Shown piece by piece: positions 1 to 26,740 of a DNA stretch of 34,379 nucleotides. Every line of letters begins with the position of its first letter. Position 1 is the first letter of the stretch. The translations under genes were made by a program, and so were the position numbers. Origin of the DNA: Verrucomicrobiota bacterium (GTDB lineage: Bacteria; Verrucomicrobiota; Verrucomicrobiia; Limisphaerales; UBA9464); the NCBI GenBank assembly GCA_947471985.1, contig CANIZL010000073.1, positions 1 through 34,379 on the forward strand, written 5' to 3'. The notes beneath the pieces are model-generated. The model had not been told where the DNA came from and searched no databases. It was given only the letters and a program-made list of their open reading frames with translations.

Positions 1-678
1 GAGAGCTTGAAACAAAGGGGGAAGATCGATCCCCTCATCCGGGCGTCGGTGGAAGCGCGTCAGGGGGATGTGTCGGCCTTCATGAAGGAGTTTAAGCAGA
101 GCTTCAGCCGATGGTACAACGAACGGAACGATCGCTTCGGTACCCTGTGGGCTGAACGTTTTACGAGTCTTCTGGTGGAGGATTCCCCGACCGCCCTGAA
201 GACGTTGGCGGCGTACATTGATCTGAATCCCGTCCGGGCGGGATTGGTCTCGGATCCGAAGGACTACCGGCACTGCGGCTATGCCGCCGCGCTGGTGGGC
301 AATAGCATGATCCGGCAGGGATTGATGAGCTTCCTGGAACCAAAGGAATGGCCGCAAGCGGCCACCGCCTACCGCTGCCTCCTCTTCGTGACGGCCGGTT
401 CCGCGAATGCGAGCGACAAACAGGTGTTGGATCCGGAAACGATCCGCGCCGAATTGGCGCGTGGGGGCGAGCTGGGCGGGGGCCAAGTGCTACGCCTGCG
501 GATACGGCATTTCAGCGATGGGGTAGTCCTGGGTTCGCGGGAATTTGTGGATCAGCAGTTCATTCGGTTTCGGGATCGCTTCAGCCCGAAGCGAAAGGAT
601 GGGGCTCGCCCCATCCGGGGCGTCCCACTCCCCGGAATCAGCGTACTGCGCGACCTCCGCGTCGACGCCATCGGCTGA
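1..678 (+). CDS. REP-associated tyrosine transposase (RAYT, IS200-like Y1 family), 5' end outside window
   Basis: The frame is already open at base 1, so this is the C-terminal part of a longer protein. Visible RAYT hallmarks are FMKEFKQSFSRWYN, then RFGTLWAERF, then the block AAYIDLNPVRAGLV followed by YRHCGYAAA. The last 60 or so residues (VLRLRIRHFSDGVVLGSREF ... RDLRVDAIG) match the C-terminal extension I associate with RAYTs of Verrucomicrobiota. RAYTs are single-stranded DNA transposases of the Y1/HUH class that act on short palindromic REP repeats. The catalytic HUH motif would lie upstream and is not visible, so activity cannot be judged. Copies of a 'gaacctggcac' repeat lie about 250-330 bp downstream, as expected for a RAYT locus. 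Confidence 0.85.
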   Translation, partial: ESLKQRGKIDPLIRASVEARQGDVSAFMKEFKQSFSRWYNERNDRFGTLWAERFTSLLVEDSPTALKTLAAYIDLNPVRAGLVSDPKDYRHCGYAAALVGNSMIRQGLMSFLEPKEWPQAATAYRCLLFVTAGSANASDKQVLDPETIRAELARGGELGGGQVLRLRIRHFSDGVVLGSREFVDQQFIRFRDRFSPKRKDGARPIRGVPLPGISVLRDLRVDAIG

Positions 679-929
679 CGCCTCAAAGGTCCCACCCTCC
701 AACGGGCCGAACCGGCGCACCCACCGCGCCGGAAGGGGGGAACTCTGCCGATCACCGGAGTAGTCGTGCCGCCGGACGTCTCGTGCCTCGCCAAATGGGC
801 TGACCCGCAGTCCAAAATACCCATTCCGGACCAATTCCACCGCGGCAGCTCACTCCGCCGCCTGCTGCATCACCAGCGGTGATGCCCCCGCAAGATACTG
901 AGGCTGGCTCCCTATCCGGCGAAGATAGC

Positions 930-940
930 GAACCTGGCAC
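930..940 (-). repeat. RAYT-associated REP-like repeat, copy A
   Basis: The sequence gaacctggcac is the reverse complement of gtgccaggttc, which recurs at 20341 and 26337. It is followed by gat and then cgctacc; the copy at 999 is likewise followed by gctacc. Position downstream of the RAYT fits a REP element or its remnant. Confidence 0.6.
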
Positions 941-998
941 GATCGCTACCTTGGGCTAATAGGTAGGGTGGAACCATCTTCAGGGGGGATCGAATGGG

Positions 999-1009
999 GA
1001 GCCTGGCAC
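999..1009 (-). repeat. RAYT-associated REP-like repeat, copy B
   Basis: The sequence gagcctggcac differs from copy A by one base, has the same orientation and lies 69 bp downstream. The shared flanking gctacc suggests that more than the 11-bp core was duplicated. Confidence 0.55.
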
Positions 1010-1314
1010 GCTACCAATGAAATAGGGGCCAGCTTTTTTTGCGCAGGGTTTCGCGCGATCGGGTCGTCGGGCTCCGGGGCTCAAAACTCCTTGCTCCGTC
1101 GGCGCAGTCTGATGTACCGTTGATTTTCCCGCGCAAAGCAGTTCGATTGTGAGTAAACTGGCTGCTAGCAGACGGGTCTGCCGGGCGCGTTTAACCGATA
1201 GTAAGCGCCGTGGAAGCAGAAGGTGCCCTACGTGGCGGCTAATTTGGGCCACTGCGCGTCCTCTTCGGGGGGCACCCCTCGACTGGTGTATCTTGCTCAC
1301 GGGTAGTGTAAGTA

Positions 1315-1847: not shown

Positions 1848-4800
1848 ATGAAGGCGGGCGCACTTCTTTCGCTCTCACGGATCCCCCGCACCGGGCCACC
1901 GGAACAGTTGCCAACCCGATGGCTCGCCACCGCGCTCGGGCTGGCCTATTTCGCTCTGGGGCGTTTGTCGGTGGAACTGACGGCACCGGACACGCAGGCC
2001 AGTCCCGCCTTCCTGCCTGCGGGCCTCGGCCTCTGCGCGTTTATGTTTCTGGGCGCCCGGATGTGGGCAGGCGTGTTTGCCGGGGCGCTGGCGATGAATC
2101 TTTTCGAGCTTTTCGCCGCCGGCCGAATGGATGATCCGCTTTCCTGGATATCGGTCGTGGTTTCGGCGGGCGGTAGCGCGTTCCGGTCCTGGATGGGAGC
2201 AATTTTGTTGGGCCGCTTTGCTTCTAATGGCCCCTTTCCGGAGACCCCAATCCAATTGGTGGGATGGGGAGGCATTCTTGCGGCCAGCTGTCTGCCCACA
2301 GCGATCCTTGGTGCCGCTTTCGTTCATCTCACCAACCAGGGCATTCCTTCCATCTGGGGAGTCGCGGTGACGTGGTGGAGCGGCGATTGGTTGGGGATTC
2401 TCATCGCGCTTATTTTTGTACGAGCCCTGGCTACGCTGCGCCAGCACCGCCCGAGACGGATCGGATTTTGGGCACATGGGGTGTTCCTGGTAGGCGCAGC
2501 CGCACTGGCAGTTGTTGGCAATACCTATCTTTCCATCACCGCCGGACTGGCCCTGGCGTGCCTGAACGTCTTCGCCTGCTCGGCGCGTCTTGGGTGTCGG
2601 CAGGCGGCATGGTTGATTGGCTCGACCTCACTGTCCTTGGCATTCCTGTTCGCGAATGACCGGGTGAGTCTGCCCTCGTCACCGTTCGCTTCGTTGATTC
2701 TGCCCCTCCACTTGCTGGTGTTGATGGCGAGTGCCGGATTGGGGCGTCGCTGGTCAACGCCGGTGGCGGGCATTTCGTGCCAGTGGAGTCAGGAGTTCCT
2801 CGTCAGTCGAATCAACCAACAGACCCTGCGCCAATCTTTGCCACTGCCCGTCGCGGTTCTTCTGGTGACGACGTTTGGTTCCGTCTTGCTCTTGTCGCTC
2901 GAGGCACGGGAAACCCGCCGGGACATGGAACAGCTGGCCACGCGAACCGAACAGCAATTGCGGAACGTGGTTTCGTCCACCTTGATTGTTCAAGACCATC
3001 AAGTCGCGACTTGGGCTCGCGACAAACATACGCCGGAAATTTGGCAGGAGGACGCGGTGCTGATGCTGGACACCTTTCCCTACGTCCAGGCCGTCCAGCA
3101 GCTCGATGCCAGCGCGACCATTCGACGGGTCGAACCCTTGGCGGGAAATGAGGCGCTGCTGAACACGAATCCCAACGGCGAGGCAGCCCGTCGCAAAAGG
3201 CTGGAGGACTCGCGCCGCCTTCGGAAGCCGGTGCTGTCGCCCTTTCTCAATCTGAAGCAGGGCGGAGTCGGTTTCATAAGCTTTGCGCCGTTGTTCAGCG
3301 GCGAACAGTTCGATGGATATCTCGCGCAGGTCTTCAAGCTGGAGAAGCTGATGGACAGCGTGTTGCTTCCGTTGAAATTCAGCACCAACACATTTCACGT
3401 CTCGCTCCGCGATAGCGGCGGTGCACGGTATGAGTTCGGTTTGCCCCCTGTCGGCGATGCGAAGAAATGGAGGGCAGGGCGTGATCTCGAGATTCGAGAT
3501 CAGGTCTGGCGCCTCAATGTGACGCCCTGTCGGCAATCGACTGTGCTGGCGCCGTGGCGGGCGTCCAACCTCGCCCTGCTGGCCGGATGCATCTTTGCGC
3601 CCTTGCTGGCCGTGATCCTCTTTTTAGGACTGCGCTCCTCGGCTGCGGAACGCGCGGCGGAAGCCGCCAATCGGGCCAAGAGCGATTTCCTGGCCACGAT
3701 GAGCCATGAGATTCGTACCCCGATGAACGGGGTGTTGGGCATGACCGAGTTGCTGCAAATGTCGCGGCTGGATACCCGCCAGCGGGAGCTGGCCGACAAC
3801 ATCAGTCGCAGCGGAAAGGCGCTGCTGGAAATCATCAATGACATTCTCGACCTCTCAAAAATTGAGGCGGGTCGCATGGTTTTAACGGAGGAGGAGTTCG
3901 ATCTGCGCCCGATGGTCGAGGGCGTGGCGGCCTTGTTGTCCCAATCCGGGCACGGCAAAACCGTTACCGTCCGGGCCGAGGTTGACGCGGCGGTGCCGGC
4001 GCGATTGCGGGGCGACGCCGGGCGTCTGCGGCAGGTGATCGTCAACCTGATGGGCAATGGCCTGAAGTTTACCCCGGCCGGTTCCGTCGTGGTGCGGATT
4101 CAGTCAGTGGAAAAGACTTCGGAGAAGGTGCGGTTGCGCTGGGAGATTGCCGACACCGGAGTGGGGATCGCGCCCGACAAATTGGCGCTCCTTTTTCAAC
4201 CGTTCCAGCAAGTGGATTCGTCGCCCACGCGACAACACGGGGGGACGGGACTGGGGTTGGTGATTTCGCGGCGCCTCGTGGAGTTGATGGGCGGAAGCAT
4301 TGGGGTGGAAAGTGAGCCGGGAAAAGGTTCGACCTTCTGGTTTGAAATTCCTCTGGCGATGGTCGCGGATCTCGCGCCCGCACCCGTGCCCGCACCCGTG
4401 CCCGCACCCGTGCCCGCACCCGTGCCCGCACCCGTGCCCGCACCCGTGCCCGCACCCGTGCCCGCACCCGTGCCCGCACCCGCCGCGCCCGCCGCGCCGG
4501 ACAGCTTGCGGGTATTGGTTGTCCGGGCCAACGAGCTTAACTCCCGGCTCTCCTTGCTGTCGCTGGAGAAACTCGGCTGCCGCGCCGATGCCGTCAGATC
4601 GGGCAAAGAGGTCCTGGATCGATTGCTACAAGTTCATTACGACGCGGTGCTCTTCGACGTGTGGCTGTCCGACATGGATGGCGCTGCGCTGGCCGCCGCG
4701 GTCCGCGCCCGGGAAGAGGGGGTTGTTTCGCGCCCGGTGCGCTTGATCGCCCTCGTTGCCGATGAGTCTATCCAAGACAGTAAGGGCACCCTGGCCGCCG

Positions 4801-15567: not shown

Positions 15568-17406
15568 ATGGCCCGCTATTCCATCGGCATCGACCTCGGC
15601 ACCACGCACTGCGCGGTCTCCTATTTCCCGCTCGACCACGAACGCGGACGCGGCACGGAACAGACCATGCTGGGAATCCCCCAGGTGACGTCGCCGGGTA
15701 CCGTGGAGGAACGCACGTTGCTGCCCTCGTTTCTCTATCTCGCGAACGCTCAGGAATTCCCCGCCGGCAGTCTCGCGCTGCCGTGGGATCCGCAGCGCTC
15801 GGGGACGGTTCTCGGTGAATTTGCCCGGACCCACGGCAGCAAGGTGCCGATGCGCCTGGTGGCCTCCGCCAAGAGCTGGCTCTGTCATGCCGGCGTGGAT
15901 CGCATGGGGCCCATTCTGCCGTGGCAGGCGCCGGCGGATGTGCAGCGCATCTCGCCGTTGGAAGCGTCCGCGCAGTATTTGGGGCACGTGCGCGCCGCGT
16001 GGAATCAGCGGTTTCCTGAAGCGGCCCTCGCCGAGCAGGAAGTGGTGCTCACCGTGCCAGCCTCGTTCGACGCCACCGCCCGCGACTTGACCCTGAAGGC
16101 GGCGCAACAGGCTGGTCTGCCGCAGGTGGTGTTGCTCGAAGAACCCCAGGCCGCGCTTTATGCGTGGACCGAGGCCATGGGGGAGAATTTTCGCAAACAC
16201 GTTCGCCCCGGAGCCGTGATCCTGGTCGTCGATGTTGGTGGCGGTACCAGTGACTTTTCGCTCATCGCCGTCACGGATCAGGGTGGGGAGGTGCAACTCA
16301 CCCGGGTGGCGGTCGGCGATCATATTCTGCTGGGCGGCGACAACATGGATCTCGCGCTGGCGCACACCGTGAATCAGCGGTTGGTGGCGGCGGGCAAGAA
16401 ACTCGATGCGTGGCAGTTTAACGCGCTGACGTTTGCGTGTCGTCAGGCCAAGGAGCAGCTCTTCAATCATCCGGAATTGCCCAGCGCGCCCATCGTGCTG
16501 CCGGGCCGCGGTTCGTCCCTGATTGGCGGGACGATCAAGACGGAGTTGTTGCGCGACGAATTGGCGCGGGTGCTGACGGACGGGTTCTTTCCCGCGACGC
16601 CGGTCACGGAGTTGCCCCAGACGGCGCGACGCACGGGCCTGGCCCAAATGTCGTTGCCCTATGCCCAGGATGCTGGCATCACCCGACACCTCGCCGCGTT
16701 TCTGACGCGTCAGGCCCGTGCCCTGGCCAGCACGCCGGATGCGCCGGTATCGGTGGCTGGGCAGAGCTTTGTGCATCCCACGGCGATTCTTTTCAACGGT
16801 GGCGTGTTCAAGGCGACCGCCCTCAAGGATCGGGTCTTGAACGTGCTCAACGGCTGGCTGGCGGCCGAAGGCGGACAACCGGTGCGGGAGTTGGAAGGTG
16901 CCGAGTACGATCTCGCCGTGGCGCGTGGTGCTGCTTACTACGGCTGGGTCCGGCAGGGGCACGGATTGCGGATTCGCGGCGGAACCGCGCGGGCGTACTA
17001 CGTCGGAGTGGAGTCGTCGATGCCGGCGATTCCCGGCATGGAACCGCCGCTGAAAGCGCTGTGTGTCGCGCCCTTCGGGATGGAGGAAGGCACTCAAGCG
17101 GACGTACCACCGCAGGAATTCGGCCTCGTCGTGGGAGAGCCCACGCGCTTCCGTTTCTTTGCCAGTTCCGTGCGCCGCGACGATCGCGTGGGCACGCTGC
17201 TGGACGAGGTTTTGGGTAACGATGAATTCGAGGAGATCGCCCCCATTGAAACCAATCTACCCGCCACCGAAGCCGCGGCGGGGCAACTCGTCCCGGTGAA
17301 TTTACAGGCCACGGTGACGGAGTTGGGCACGCTGGAACTTCGTTGCCTGGAGCACGGCGGTGCGGGTAATTGGAAGCTGGAACTCAACGTTCGGATGAAG
17401 GAGTAG
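15568..17406 (+). CDS. Divergent Hsp70 family protein (first of pair)
   Basis: A 612-residue DnaK-like chaperone ATPase. Phosphate-1 loop GIDLGTTHCAVSYF, phosphate-2 loop DVGGGTSDFS (D222) and adenosine-type motif FNGGVFKATALKDR are present, as is TVPASFDATARDLT. Insert LLPSFLYLANAQEFPAG and the SAKSWLCHAGVDR block mark the non-DnaK subgroup. The C-terminal 150 residues are short and beta-rich, ending in a GTLELRCLEH ... WKLELNV element also found in the second Hsp70; there is no long helical lid or EEVD-type tail. No DnaJ or GrpE is nearby. Co-directional with DUF2760 and a second Hsp70, so it likely forms a dedicated chaperone pair. Client unknown. Confidence 0.9.
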   Translation: MARYSIGIDLGTTHCAVSYFPLDHERGRGTEQTMLGIPQVTSPGTVEERTLLPSFLYLANAQEFPAGSLALPWDPQRSGTVLGEFARTHGSKVPMRLVASAKSWLCHAGVDRMGPILPWQAPADVQRISPLEASAQYLGHVRAAWNQRFPEAALAEQEVVLTVPASFDATARDLTLKAAQQAGLPQVVLLEEPQAALYAWTEAMGENFRKHVRPGAVILVVDVGGGTSDFSLIAVTDQGGEVQLTRVAVGDHILLGGDNMDLALAHTVNQRLVAAGKKLDAWQFNALTFACRQAKEQLFNHPELPSAPIVLPGRGSSLIGGTIKTELLRDELARVLTDGFFPATPVTELPQTARRTGLAQMSLPYAQDAGITRHLAAFLTRQARALASTPDAPVSVAGQSFVHPTAILFNGGVFKATALKDRVLNVLNGWLAAEGGQPVRELEGAEYDLAVARGAAYYGWVRQGHGLRIRGGTARAYYVGVESSMPAIPGMEPPLKALCVAPFGMEEGTQADVPPQEFGLVVGEPTRFRFFASSVRRDDRVGTLLDEVLGNDEFEEIAPIETNLPATEAAAGQLVPVNLQATVTELGTLELRCLEHGGAGNWKLELNVRMKE

Positions 17407-17443: not shown

Positions 17444-20272
17444 TTGTCTGCTTCCCGCTACATTGTCGGCATCGACCTCGGCACGACCAATTGTGCGGTG
17501 GCGTATGCGTCCGCCGATGTCGAGGCCGTCGACGGGGTGCGTGATTTCCCGATCCCGCAATTGGAGCGGCCGGGGCAGGTGGCGGCGCTGTCGTTGTTGC
17601 CGTCCGCGCTTTACGTACCCAGTCCGCACGAGTTGCCGCCGGGAGCGACCGCACTGCCGTGGGGTCCTTCGGACGCAGTGTTGGTGGGCGAGTTTGCGCG
17701 CTGGCAGGGAGCGCGGGTGCCCGGGCGCCTGGTGAGTTCGGCGAAGAGTTGGTTGTGTCACGACGGGGTGGATCGTTCCGCCGCGATCCTGCCGTGGGGC
17801 GCCCCTCCGGAGGTGGCGAAGGTATCGCCCACGGAGGCCACGGCCCGCTTGCTGGCGCACCTGGTCGCGGCATGGAATCATGCGTACCCCGAGGCGCCCT
17901 TGGGCGAACAGGAAGTGGTCATCACGGTTCCCGCTTCCTTTGATGAAGTCGCGCGGGCCTTGACCGTCGCGGCGGCCCAGCAGGCGGGATTGCAGCGGCT
18001 CACGCTCGTCGAGGAACCCCAGGCGGCGTTTTACGATTTCACGGCGCATCACCCGGAGCAACTCGCCGAAACCTTGCGGGACGTGCGCCTGGTTTTGGTA
18101 GTGGATGTTGGCGGTGGCACCACCGACTTCACGCTGATTGCGGTGCAGGCCACGGAGACCGGGCCGGATTTGCGCCGGATCGCGGTGGGCGATCACCTGA
18201 TGCTGGGCGGCGACAACATGGACGCGGCCCTCGCCCGACGCGTGGAAACCCAGTGGGCGCAGGACGGGCGAAAACTGAATCCGGCGCAATGGTTGCAACT
18301 GGTCCAGTCAGCGCGCGGCGCGAAGGAAGCTCTGCTCGGAGCCACTCCCGCCGAACGGCACGGCATCGCGGTCGTAGGTGCCGGAAGTCGGTTGTTGGCC
18401 GGAACCCTTTCGGCGGAACTCGGCCGCGAAGAAACCGAAGCGGTGATTCTCGACGGATTTTTTCCGGTGGGCACCGCGGATGAAGTTCCGCGGCGCGGCG
18501 CCCGGGGTGCCTTGCAGGAACTGGGATTGCCCTACGCGCAGGATGCCGCGATTACCCGGCACTTGGCCGCGTTTTTACGCCAGCATGCGGCGGCGGCGTG
18601 GACGGCGTTGGGGCGTGGGGATCTTGGGGCGGGATTGCCCCGGCCCGACGCCATTCTGTTGAACGGTGGCGTGTTCAATTCCCCGAAGCTCACCGCGCGA
18701 CTGCGGGACGTCCTTTCTTCGTGGTGGCCGGACGCACCTTCGTTGCGCCTACTGCCGCATCATTCGTTGGAACTGGCCGTCGCCCGCGGCGCGGCGCATT
18801 ACGGGCGGGTGCGCCACGGCTGGGGCCGACGCATCGGAGGCGGGGCGGCCCATGCGTTTTATGTCGGCCTGGCGGGCGAATCGGGGCCGCGTGCGGTTTG
18901 CCTGATTCCGCGCGGTCAGGAGGAGGGTGCCGCGGTGGACTTGAATCAACGTCCGTTCGAACTGGCCCTGGGGCAGCCGGTCCAGTTTCCACTGTATACC
19001 ACCAGCTCGGATCGCGCGGATCGGCCCGGAGATCTGGTGTCCGTGGGTGAGGACTTTCGACCGTTGCCGCCGATTCACACGGTGTTGAAGAGTGCGGGCA
19101 TTTCGAAGGGCGGCGTGCCGGTCCACCTGCGCGCGACTATCACCGAGGTGGGAACCCTGGAACTCTGGTGCGTGGCGCAGGATCGACCCGAGCGATGGCG
19201 ATTGGAATTCGAACTCCGCGGCGCGCCAGCTCCGACCGATCCCGCTGCGGTTCGACCGGTCACGGAATCCCTGCCGCGACGCTTTGCCGACGCCCAGGCG
19301 GCGATCCAGCGGGTCTACGGTTCCGGGGGAGCGGGGGATGGGACGAAAGAAGCACGGCAATTGGGCCGAACGCTGGAGCAGTGGGTGGGTTCGCGGGAAA
19401 CCTGGCGGGCTCCCGTATTGCGCGAACTCTGGAGCCTGCTCCATGCCGGCGCCAAGGCCCGGCGGCGATCGGTGGATCACGAGCGGGCTTTTTACCAGCT
19501 CGCCGGCTATACGTTGCGCCCCGGCTATGGCTATCCTTTGGATGCCTGGCGTTGCGAGCAGATGTTTCCGCGTTTCACCGAAGGCGTGACGCATCGCGAC
19601 GGGCCGCTGGTCTGGAACGACTTTTGGATTCTTTGGCGTCGCCTCGCCGGCGGCCTGACGGAAACGCAGCAACAGGAGATCTACGCGTACCTGAAGCCGC
19701 ATCTCGCCCGGCGCATTTTGCCGCACAAATCCAAGTCCCTGCCCAAACCGAAAGGGGTTCAGCCCGAAGGCTTGGATGAAATGGTCCGACTTGCGGCGGC
19801 GTTGGAGCAGATCGGCGCGGGCGACAAGATGGAGCTGGGACATTGGATCGTCGAACGCCTCAAGGATCCCACTGCGGCGGCGGGTCCGTGGGCCTGGGCC
19901 TTGGGGCGTCTGGGCGCGCGCGAGCCCCTGCACGGCAGTCCGCATCGGACGGTCCCGGCGGCGCAGGCGGCTGCCTGGCTGAGTTTTCTTTTGGGCTTGA
20001 ATCTGCGCGGCACGGCGGGCGCCCTGTTTGCGGTGACCCAACTTGCCCGCCGCACCGGTGATCGCGCGCGGGATGTCGACGACGCCCTGCGCGACGCGAC
20101 GCTCGCTGCCCTGCGGACGGCGGCGGCGCCGGAGCGTTGGCAGCAGATGGTCCGGGAAGTGGTGGAATTGGATGCCGAAGAAGAAGCCCAGGCCTTGGGG
20201 GATTCCCTCCCGCTGGGGCTTCGATTGGAGCCGGTTTCGGTTTCCTCTCGAACGGGCAGGTCCGCCAGCTGA
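17444..20272 (+). CDS. Hsp70 family protein with C-terminal DUF3731-like extension (second of pair)
   Basis: A 942-residue relative of the preceding protein: GIDLGTTNCAVAY, SAKSWLCHDGVDR, VVDVGGGTTDFTL (D221) and LNGGVFNSPKL. After a shared beta element (GTLELWCVAQ ... WRLEFELR) a long extension from about residue 600 to 942 carries conserved-looking helices (HAGAKARRRSVDHERAFYQL, RPGYGYPLDAWR, WNDFWILWRRLAGGLTE); I assign it to DUF3731 with moderate confidence. The start is a TTG 37 bp after the first Hsp70 stop; the GIDLGTTN loop then falls at the correct distance, and no ATG is available upstream of it. The two Hsp70s probably arose by duplication and then diverged in their C-termini. Confidence 0.9.
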   Translation: MSASRYIVGIDLGTTNCAVAYASADVEAVDGVRDFPIPQLERPGQVAALSLLPSALYVPSPHELPPGATALPWGPSDAVLVGEFARWQGARVPGRLVSSAKSWLCHDGVDRSAAILPWGAPPEVAKVSPTEATARLLAHLVAAWNHAYPEAPLGEQEVVITVPASFDEVARALTVAAAQQAGLQRLTLVEEPQAAFYDFTAHHPEQLAETLRDVRLVLVVDVGGGTTDFTLIAVQATETGPDLRRIAVGDHLMLGGDNMDAALARRVETQWAQDGRKLNPAQWLQLVQSARGAKEALLGATPAERHGIAVVGAGSRLLAGTLSAELGREETEAVILDGFFPVGTADEVPRRGARGALQELGLPYAQDAAITRHLAAFLRQHAAAAWTALGRGDLGAGLPRPDAILLNGGVFNSPKLTARLRDVLSSWWPDAPSLRLLPHHSLELAVARGAAHYGRVRHGWGRRIGGGAAHAFYVGLAGESGPRAVCLIPRGQEEGAAVDLNQRPFELALGQPVQFPLYTTSSDRADRPGDLVSVGEDFRPLPPIHTVLKSAGISKGGVPVHLRATITEVGTLELWCVAQDRPERWRLEFELRGAPAPTDPAAVRPVTESLPRRFADAQAAIQRVYGSGGAGDGTKEARQLGRTLEQWVGSRETWRAPVLRELWSLLHAGAKARRRSVDHERAFYQLAGYTLRPGYGYPLDAWRCEQMFPRFTEGVTHRDGPLVWNDFWILWRRLAGGLTETQQQEIYAYLKPHLARRILPHKSKSLPKPKGVQPEGLDEMVRLAAALEQIGAGDKMELGHWIVERLKDPTAAAGPWAWALGRLGAREPLHGSPHRTVPAAQAAAWLSFLLGLNLRGTAGALFAVTQLARRTGDRARDVDDALRDATLAALRTAAAPERWQQMVREVVELDAEEEAQALGDSLPLGLRLEPVSVSSRTGRSAS

Positions 20273-20340: not shown

Positions 20341-20364
20341 GTGCCAGGTTCAGGGTTTTGGCAC
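20341..20364 (+). repeat. RAYT-type REP-like hairpin
   Basis: Starts with gtgccaggttc, the core seen at 26337 and, inverted, at 930. Terminal gtgcca and tggcac pair as a 6-bp stem with a 12-nt loop. It lies 68 bp after the Hsp70 operon stop and could also act as a transcript end, though no T-tract follows. Confidence 0.6.
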
Positions 20365-26135: not shown

Positions 26136-26740
26136 GGCGTGGATGTGGGGACCCCGGCCAGCGACGGCTGGCCTTTTTGCTCCGGGATTGCGGTGGTCTT
26201 CACCCGGGCACTGTGCAATGGCTGGCGTTTCCGCTCAATCGGACCTTGGTCGGAGTCCCGCGCCCGCGGCCGCGTTGAGGTGTTGATTCAGCCCGCCGCC
26301 CGGGAAGCTCGGCCGCGTCGCGCCGGCCCCCAATCGGTGCCAGGTTCAAAATTCGAACCGGTGGCGATGGCGTCGCAGAAGTGGGGCCAGGTTCAATGTC
26401 GCCCCCCGGGGGGGCGGATGGTTGGCGGGCCAGGTTCGATATTGGGACCGGGGTGATTAGCGAGCCTGGTCCCAGTGCCTTCAGTGAACCTGCCCCCGTT
26501 GGGGAGGGGTAGTGGCGCTTGGATCAACCCTCCCCAACTCATACCGGCGACCCCGGCCGCACGGGGGACGGATTGCCGGGGGCAGGTTCAAAATTCCGGG
26601 TAACGTCAAGCGGGGCACCGCAGTGGGACCAAGTTCGATATTCCGGAGCCCCGGAAACAGGGTGTCAGGCTCAGAATTTTGGGCCGTTGGCCCCAGCCGT
26701 TGGGTCGGCTGGGGCGCTATAAGGGGCCTCGGGCGGCGGA
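26136..26740. other. Gene-free interval filled with degenerate repeats
   Basis: About 600 bp with no credible gene. From 26330 to 26690 it consists largely of short degenerate copies of the RAYT-type repeat, annotated as a block. The stretch 26136-26330 must hold the promoter of the 569-residue gene (minus strand), but I could not pick one with confidence. Confidence 0.7.
26337..26683. repeat. Cluster of about eight degenerate REP-like repeats
   Basis: Best copy at 26337-26359: gtgccaggttc, spacer aaaatt, then cgaacc, so that ggttc and gaacc form an inverted pair. Further copies in the same sense start near 26385 (ggccaggttcaatg), 26428 (ggccaggttcgatattg), 26579 (gggcaggttcaaaattcc), 26625 (gggaccaagttcgatattcc) and 26662 (gtgtcaggctcagaatttt). 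Two in the opposite sense are at 26462 (gagcctggtccc) and 26486 (gaacctgccccc). Spacing is irregular (roughly 25-95 bp), so this is not a CRISPR or satellite array. Several carry extra G/C arms that could fold. Confidence 0.75.

Follow-up and report, generated by a model that had tools for sequence, protein, structure and literature searches.

The RAYT locus

The window, that is, the whole stretch of 34,379 nucleotides analyzed here, is the complete contig C73 of a Verrucomicrobiota genome (G000; assembly of 6.38 Mb in 180 contigs, 96% complete). It opens with a truncated gene for a RAYT-type transposase, which is followed by a set of short repeated modules. The scores in this list refer to the position matrix (PWM) described in the next section.

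1..678, + strand: 3' two thirds of a RAYT gene (TnpA-REP-like Y1 HUH transposase), cut by the contig end
890..1010, - strand: terminal array at the right end of the RAYT unit; identity to the consensus of this end in the other copies is 93%
900..910, - strand: terminal module with the core variant GAGCCAGCCTC, PWM score 26
930..940, - strand: terminal module with the exact core GTGCCAGGTTC
999..1009, - strand: terminal module with the core GTGCCAGGCTC, one mismatch to GTGCCAGGTTC
20341..20351, + strand: solitary dispersed module with the exact core, between two co-directional genes
26337..26672, + strand: gene-less intergenic array of seven modules (PWM scores 15-25), at 26337, 26384, 26427, 26579, 26626 and 26662 on the + strand and at 26462 on the - strand

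The open reading frame at 1-678 encodes the C-terminal 225 residues (98-322) of a 322-aa RAYT, including the catalytic tyrosine motif AAYIDLNPVRAG (YIDLNPVRAG). The part with the HUH motif falls outside the window, which coincides with the contig. This fragment matches the NCBIfam profile NF047646, REP_Tyr_transpos, with an E-value of 2.9e-11 as well as the Pfam Y1_Tnp domain, and shares 87-95% identity with the intact copies of 322 aa, in agreement with the preliminary description, which had noticed RAYT hallmarks at this position. The two inverted cores claimed to lie downstream are both present and inverted with respect to the gene, but the one at 999-1009 is not exact. The modules at 930-940 and 999-1009 point in the same direction, opposite to that of the gene and of the left end in intact copies, and the right-end consensus, derived from an alignment of 18 copies, matches 890-1010 with a blastn E-value of 7e-38. 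The reported recurrences of the core at 20341 and 26337 (26337-26347) are both exact and both on the + strand; the module at 900-910 and the array at 26337-26672 are additional to those listed originally. With at most one mismatch to the core, the window contains 6 matches compared to 0.78 expected (0 of 100 shuffles).

Elsewhere in the window, two adjacent long open reading frames (15568-17406 and 17444-20272) share a 75% identical start and a GIDLGTT motif and are probably tandem Hsp70-like genes, and a 12-bp tandem repeat, CCCGTGCCCGCA, occurs in about ten copies within a long open reading frame (4349-4506).

A dispersed 23-bp module

The exact core GTGCCAGGTTC is found 122 times in G000 (64 forward, 58 reverse) whereas the reversed control is not found at all; with one mismatch, the counts are 400 and 112, respectively. 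Thus, the genome-wide dispersal that was originally surmised from four sites in one contig is borne out. A PWM built iteratively from 758 kb of G000 sequence defines the module as a 23-bp imperfect dyad, RRATRSS-GTGCCAGGYTC-NCTRTY. In these 758 kb, the final PWM yields 381 strand-wise matches at a score of 12, against 19 in Markov shuffles, and 329 at a score of at least 14; a neighboring iteration yields 281 against 5. At a score of 11, there are 413 matches; 151 of these repeat a site already matched on the other strand, so that the number of distinct sites is 262. When scaled by the exact cores, the genome-wide number of modules is about 340-440; a higher estimate, about 1,700 modules per genome, was dropped given that it came from the core-rich contigs C3-C5.

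The expected intergenic enrichment is pronounced: only 5% of the modules and 3 of 72 exact cores fall within genes, compared to a coding share of 82% (as determined in the 758 kb with a home-made gene caller). Neighboring modules are in the same orientation in 184 of 190 pairs, with spacings that cluster at 28, 34, 36 and 43-46 bp. The arrays are located at RAYT copies in 17 of 72 cases and elsewhere in the remaining 55, and one dispersed array type consists of four modules over about 160 bp in which the spacers are also conserved.

The preliminary description took the core for the REP family served by this RAYT. The connection with the RAYT holds, as discussed below, but the modules are not REP palindromes. 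The GTAG/GTGG foot is absent from the modules, the cores of which read GTGC or GTGA, and hairpin folding does not exceed chance for 230 single modules (mean z of 0.12) or for 146 module pairs (mean z of -0.19 compared to -0.14 for random stretches). The REP hairpin reading was rejected on the strength of this systematic folding against shuffles. At one locus (L115:17905-17968, contig C62), a 12-bp unit, GTGTCAGGTTCG, is present in at least four tandem copies adjoining an exact module; this repeat looks like slippage of half a module.

A multi-copy RAYT with defined ends

About 35 copies or fragments of the RAYT gene are present in G000, with 84-100% identity to the window copy; many are truncated and many lie at contig ends. 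The intact copies encode 322 aa with the HFH and YIDLNP motifs and score 44 bits with Pfam Y1_Tnp and 54 bits with NF047646; the latter score is under the profile cut-off of 80, probably because an insertion splits the match. The features by which RAYTs are defined, namely the HUH motif and the Y---NP signature within a Y1_Tnp fold, are all in place. The AlphaFold model considered here is that of a 61-62% identical relative from a metagenome-assembled genome (MAG) labelled Akkermansia (mean pLDDT of 80). Its first PDB match is 4er8, the E. coli RAYT with a REP hairpin; between the HUH strand and the helices on the Tyr side, the model has three additional helices, and its C-terminal tail, predicted with lower confidence, is helical.

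In the copies with both sides assembled, inverted module arrays are found at both borders. Each end consists of four or five modules at fixed spacing, about 28-36-36-38 in the left array of the aligned copies and about 26-34-34-30 in the right array, which is in the inverted orientation. Unique sequence starts at the outermost module (for example, at the left end on contigs C4 and C61 and at the right end on C3, C4 and C11), and outside the outermost GTGCCAGG, the flanks of the copies on C4, C61, C11 and C3 are unrelated; the unit on C4 is 1,537 bp long. The outer flanks are unrelated among the copies that are not carried by another transposon. Inspection by eye of the ends of units with unrelated flanks detects no target duplication, and none is expected for Y1 enzymes. 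Gene-less derivatives exist as well: in the array on C25, the left and right ends are joined within a GGCTCCCTAT-like stretch that they have in common, and similar inverted gene-less arrays are located on C34 and C61.

The seven intact G000 copies show a dN/dS of 0.10 at a dS of 0.34, which indicates strong purifying selection among the copies. With dS at this level, the copies are therefore old, without a recent burst; each would have stayed functional until lately, as expected if copying requires function. In the protein tree, ten G000 copies form one clade (support 100/100). Three other RAYTs of G000 are 44-48% identical to the window type; modules are absent from their examined flanks, and these lineages were rejected as the source of the modules.

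RAYT lineages and their modules in related genomes

All 26 named loci found by a search with the window RAYT belong to Verrucomicrobiota, and the host is accordingly placed in this phylum. In 144 relatives from the same family and order, the exact GTGCCAGGTTC is present in 0-13 copies, much like the control, so that a core common to the whole family is rejected; among the 145 genomes, enrichment is seen only in G000. Two outcomes were named at the outset as speaking against a link with the RAYT, namely a core without enrichment outside the window and a core equally frequent in relatives that lack the RAYT; neither is observed. The relatives possess related modules instead. Those with 59-74% identical RAYTs carry GTGACAGGTTCAATnnnnTTGAC upstream of the gene, many copies in G011 and G018 have an inverted ATTGAACCTGTCAC-like module downstream, and in G061, NCAGKC-TTTTAAATTGAC-like modules precede the RAYT. 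Each RAYT lineage of the relatives shows its own module variant at its ends. The variant GTGACAGGTTC is present in at least 8 copies in 18 of the 46 genomes with such a RAYT compared to 0 of the 98 without it (Fisher p of 8e-11, with genomes treated as independent of kinship). Large GTGACAGGTTC families also occur in G010 (70 copies) and G118 (44 copies), where the RAYTs are only 43-52% identical; therefore, this core is not strictly clade-bound. Judging from these sequence associations, the modules are the cognate repeats of this RAYT.

The position of the upstream module is suggestive. In about 34 of about 40 upstream regions that contain the pattern, the module (NCAGG) lies 16 nt before TTGA (30 counted directly and four scored as 11 owing to an earlier TTGA), and the likely promoter region of one relative reads GTGACAGGTTCAAT-N4-TTGACA. 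In most of the relatives examined, the upstream module terminates immediately ahead of TTGAC and thus overlaps the likely -35 box or promoter; in G000 itself, no TTGAC follows the proximal module.

The multi-copy state is found outside G000 as well. The 14 copies of G061 form one clade in the protein tree (100/100), and those of G011 and G018 are interleaved. A filled/empty pair is provided by G024 (contig C142), where the RAYT and its upstream module sit behind an intrinsic-terminator-like hairpin, and by the orthologous intergenic site of G043 (contig C3), where both are absent. Both flanking genes are collinear at about 73% identity, and because the flanks are only this similar, the empty-site junction is not base-exact; loss in G043 is a possible alternative. 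In genus g3, several other RAYT loci are common to many species and therefore the gene is inherited vertically there. No insertion has been caught within one species, which counts against mobility. Nevertheless, the conserved ends, the many copies, the low dN/dS and the filled/empty pair together suggest that the RAYT unit behaves like a mobile element.

Two further observations concern individual loci. At L221-L236 (G011 and G018), short stretches of the flank are duplicated in tandem up to the terminal module (AAAAAGTGAC-AAAAAGTGACAGG, ATATAGGGAC-ATATAGGGACAGG and GATGAAAC-GATGAAACGGGGACAGG, for example); these duplications are possibly a trace of the insertion mechanism. Locus L145 (CAMATE010000109.1), at the end of a 10-kb contig in a MAG labelled Akkermansia muciniphila, encodes a RAYT that is about 62% identical to the window type and falls within genus g3, which belongs to the window's family; therefore, this contig may be misbinned.

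Comparison with known systems

The best fit among the described systems is the TIRtron (Di Nocera 2013), with a long RAYT that resembles the multi-copy subclass 2.3. In the units with assembled flanks, the RAYT is bordered by inverted non-REP repeats, the defining feature of TIRtrons/TIRYTs. As in TIRtrons, a RAYT-type HUH Y1 transposase lies between inverted repeats rather than GTAG REPs, and these repeats also form dispersed families, as dimers or clusters (PMC3733652). The TIR motif GGGGWSAS is not contained in the G000 core GTGCCAGG; GGGGACAG, found at the same place in the relatives G018 (L235) and G102 (L194), fits this motif. Published TIRYTs are present in one to a few copies per genome with moderately abundant TIRs (PMC3733652), whereas the present system includes about 340-440 modules in ordered arrays of 4-9 modules with fixed spacing, and about 35 gene copies or fragments for a RAYT with a long insertion. 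The preliminary description stressed the location of its candidate system outside Proteobacteria, which is in itself not new: Acidobacteria are known to have TIR-flanked RAYTs, and the verrucomicrobium O. terrae has GTAG REPs (PMC3733652).

The resemblance to subclass 2.3 consists in the length (about 325 aa), the insertion that separates the HUH strand from the Tyr helix, the long C-terminal tail, and several diverged copies per genome without a REP hairpin (PMC6006769); as used here, it refers to length, HUH-Tyr insertion and copy number, the second published insertion being located between beta1 and alphaA. Unlike subclass 2.3, the present RAYTs come from a different phylum and have cognate end modules, which are undescribed for that subclass; in multi-copy subclass 2.3, no REP-like end structures were found (PMC6006769). 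The nearest relatives outside Verrucomicrobiota in a plasmid collection are mostly from Alteromonadales, and the matches to Pseudoalteromonas, Shewanella and Vibrio proteins are only 24-30% identical. Some of these Alteromonadales plasmid relatives are flanked by repeated inverted modules, e.g., TTAGACACCCACTTTA; on two Pseudoalteromonas plasmids (L286 and L289), distant subclass-2.3-like RAYTs are bordered by the inverted module (A)GACACCCACTTTA.

The system shares with the REPtrons/REPINs of groups 2 and 3 (E. coli, Pseudomonas) a RAYT with dispersed, intergenic cognate repeats and gene-less derivatives. It differs from these in the lack of a GT[AG]G foot beside a hairpin, in direct module arrays rather than inverted doublets, and in a transposase gene that is multi-copy, with conserved ends, rather than single-copy and non-mobile, which sets the unit apart from a single-copy REPtron. 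The Y1 HUH fold, the multi-copy unit and the absence of a visible target-site duplication are shared with IS200/IS605 elements; unlike those, this RAYT has a Y---NP instead of a Y---Q motif and long terminal module arrays, and neither subterminal hairpins nor a TnpB were detected here.

Proposed mechanism and alternative explanations

The window probably contains one copy of an autonomous single-strand (HUH/Y1) transposable unit of about 1.5 kb, a TIRtron, in which a 322-aa RAYT lies between two inverted terminal arrays of the 23-bp dyad module. Under this scenario, the RAYT would bind the modules, cut and join single strands at the ends, with no duplication of the target, and thereby spread its own unit; acting in trans, it would also spread the gene-less arrays, both the end-to-end fusions and the four-module arrays of about 160 bp. 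The same module would allow the RAYT to repress its own promoter, and an ISKra4-family transposon would have additionally spread some copies as passengers. HUH Y1 transposases recognize hairpins, and the least supported step is the recognition by an HUH enzyme of ends that form none. A duplex-binding C-terminal domain in the RAYT is a guess. It is conceivable, although we consider this only a tentative proposal, that this transposase recognizes linear, operator-like arrays of dyad modules, probably double-stranded, in place of hairpins, and that repression through the same module couples copy-number control to the dispersed repeats.

The copies could have also multiplied without any activity of the RAYT, through an ISKra4-family transposon together with segmental duplication. 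Such a transposon exists in G000, with the TIR TGTGGGACAAAAATCTTC, a DUF6788 open reading frame and a transposase (225 bits with the ISKra4 profile NF033572). Five RAYT units (contigs C8, C11, C79, C40 and C152) and the gene-less array on C25 lie against or inside ends of this type with identical junctions, and direct repeats of 9-11 bp flank the composites on C11 and C25 and a complete 1.7-kb transposon copy on C39. Loci of this transposon include L134 (on C39), L101, L103 and L098, and its derivatives carry RAYT units or gene-less arrays; a direct repeat beside several RAYT copies, considered as a part of the RAYT unit, was rejected as such and is the transposon end. Given that five units share these junctions, part of the RAYT copy number may be due to hitch-hiking. 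The copies without ISKra4 ends are not explained in this way: on C4, C61, C62, C11 (where this concerns the first copy) and C3, the flanks of the units are unrelated, and the examined sides lack such an end. ISKra4 ends are also absent from the dispersed four-module arrays, and no such transposon was seen in those flanks of the multi-copy RAYTs of G011, G018 and G061 that were read. An immobile, purely passenger RAYT hence appears unlikely.

A domesticated RAYT of the kind proposed for the single-copy representatives, which would serve the host and maintain intergenic repeats for a cellular function, is compatible with the purifying selection between copies, with the vertical inheritance in genus g3 and with the intergenic location of the modules. 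According to PMC6006769, formal proof that RAYTs move autonomously is lacking. In PMC8266576, RAYTs are regarded as the first bacterial transposases to have been domesticated, given that most occur as a single gene copy and that signs of mobility are lacking. The view of RAYTs as domesticated depends on these two properties, whereas here there are about 35 copies and fragments, many truncated, with transposon-like ends, and the expansions in G000 and G061 are independent; domestication is accordingly the less probable of these two alternatives. Even less credible, and indeed hardly tenable, is the possibility that an unrelated regulator of the host binds the modules and that the RAYT inserts beside them. 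The dyad-symmetric 23-bp shape does resemble an operator, and its position in the relatives is directly adjacent to the likely -35 box, but the sequence of the module varies from one RAYT lineage to another, amplification occurs only where such a RAYT is present, and fixed, ordered arrays belong to both unit ends.

If the window indeed carries a TIRtron, a RAYT that multiplies with defined ends would offer a testbed for RAYT mobility, for hairpin-free end recognition and for autoregulation, and a multi-copy RAYT of this kind might represent the ancestral state from which REPtrons derive.
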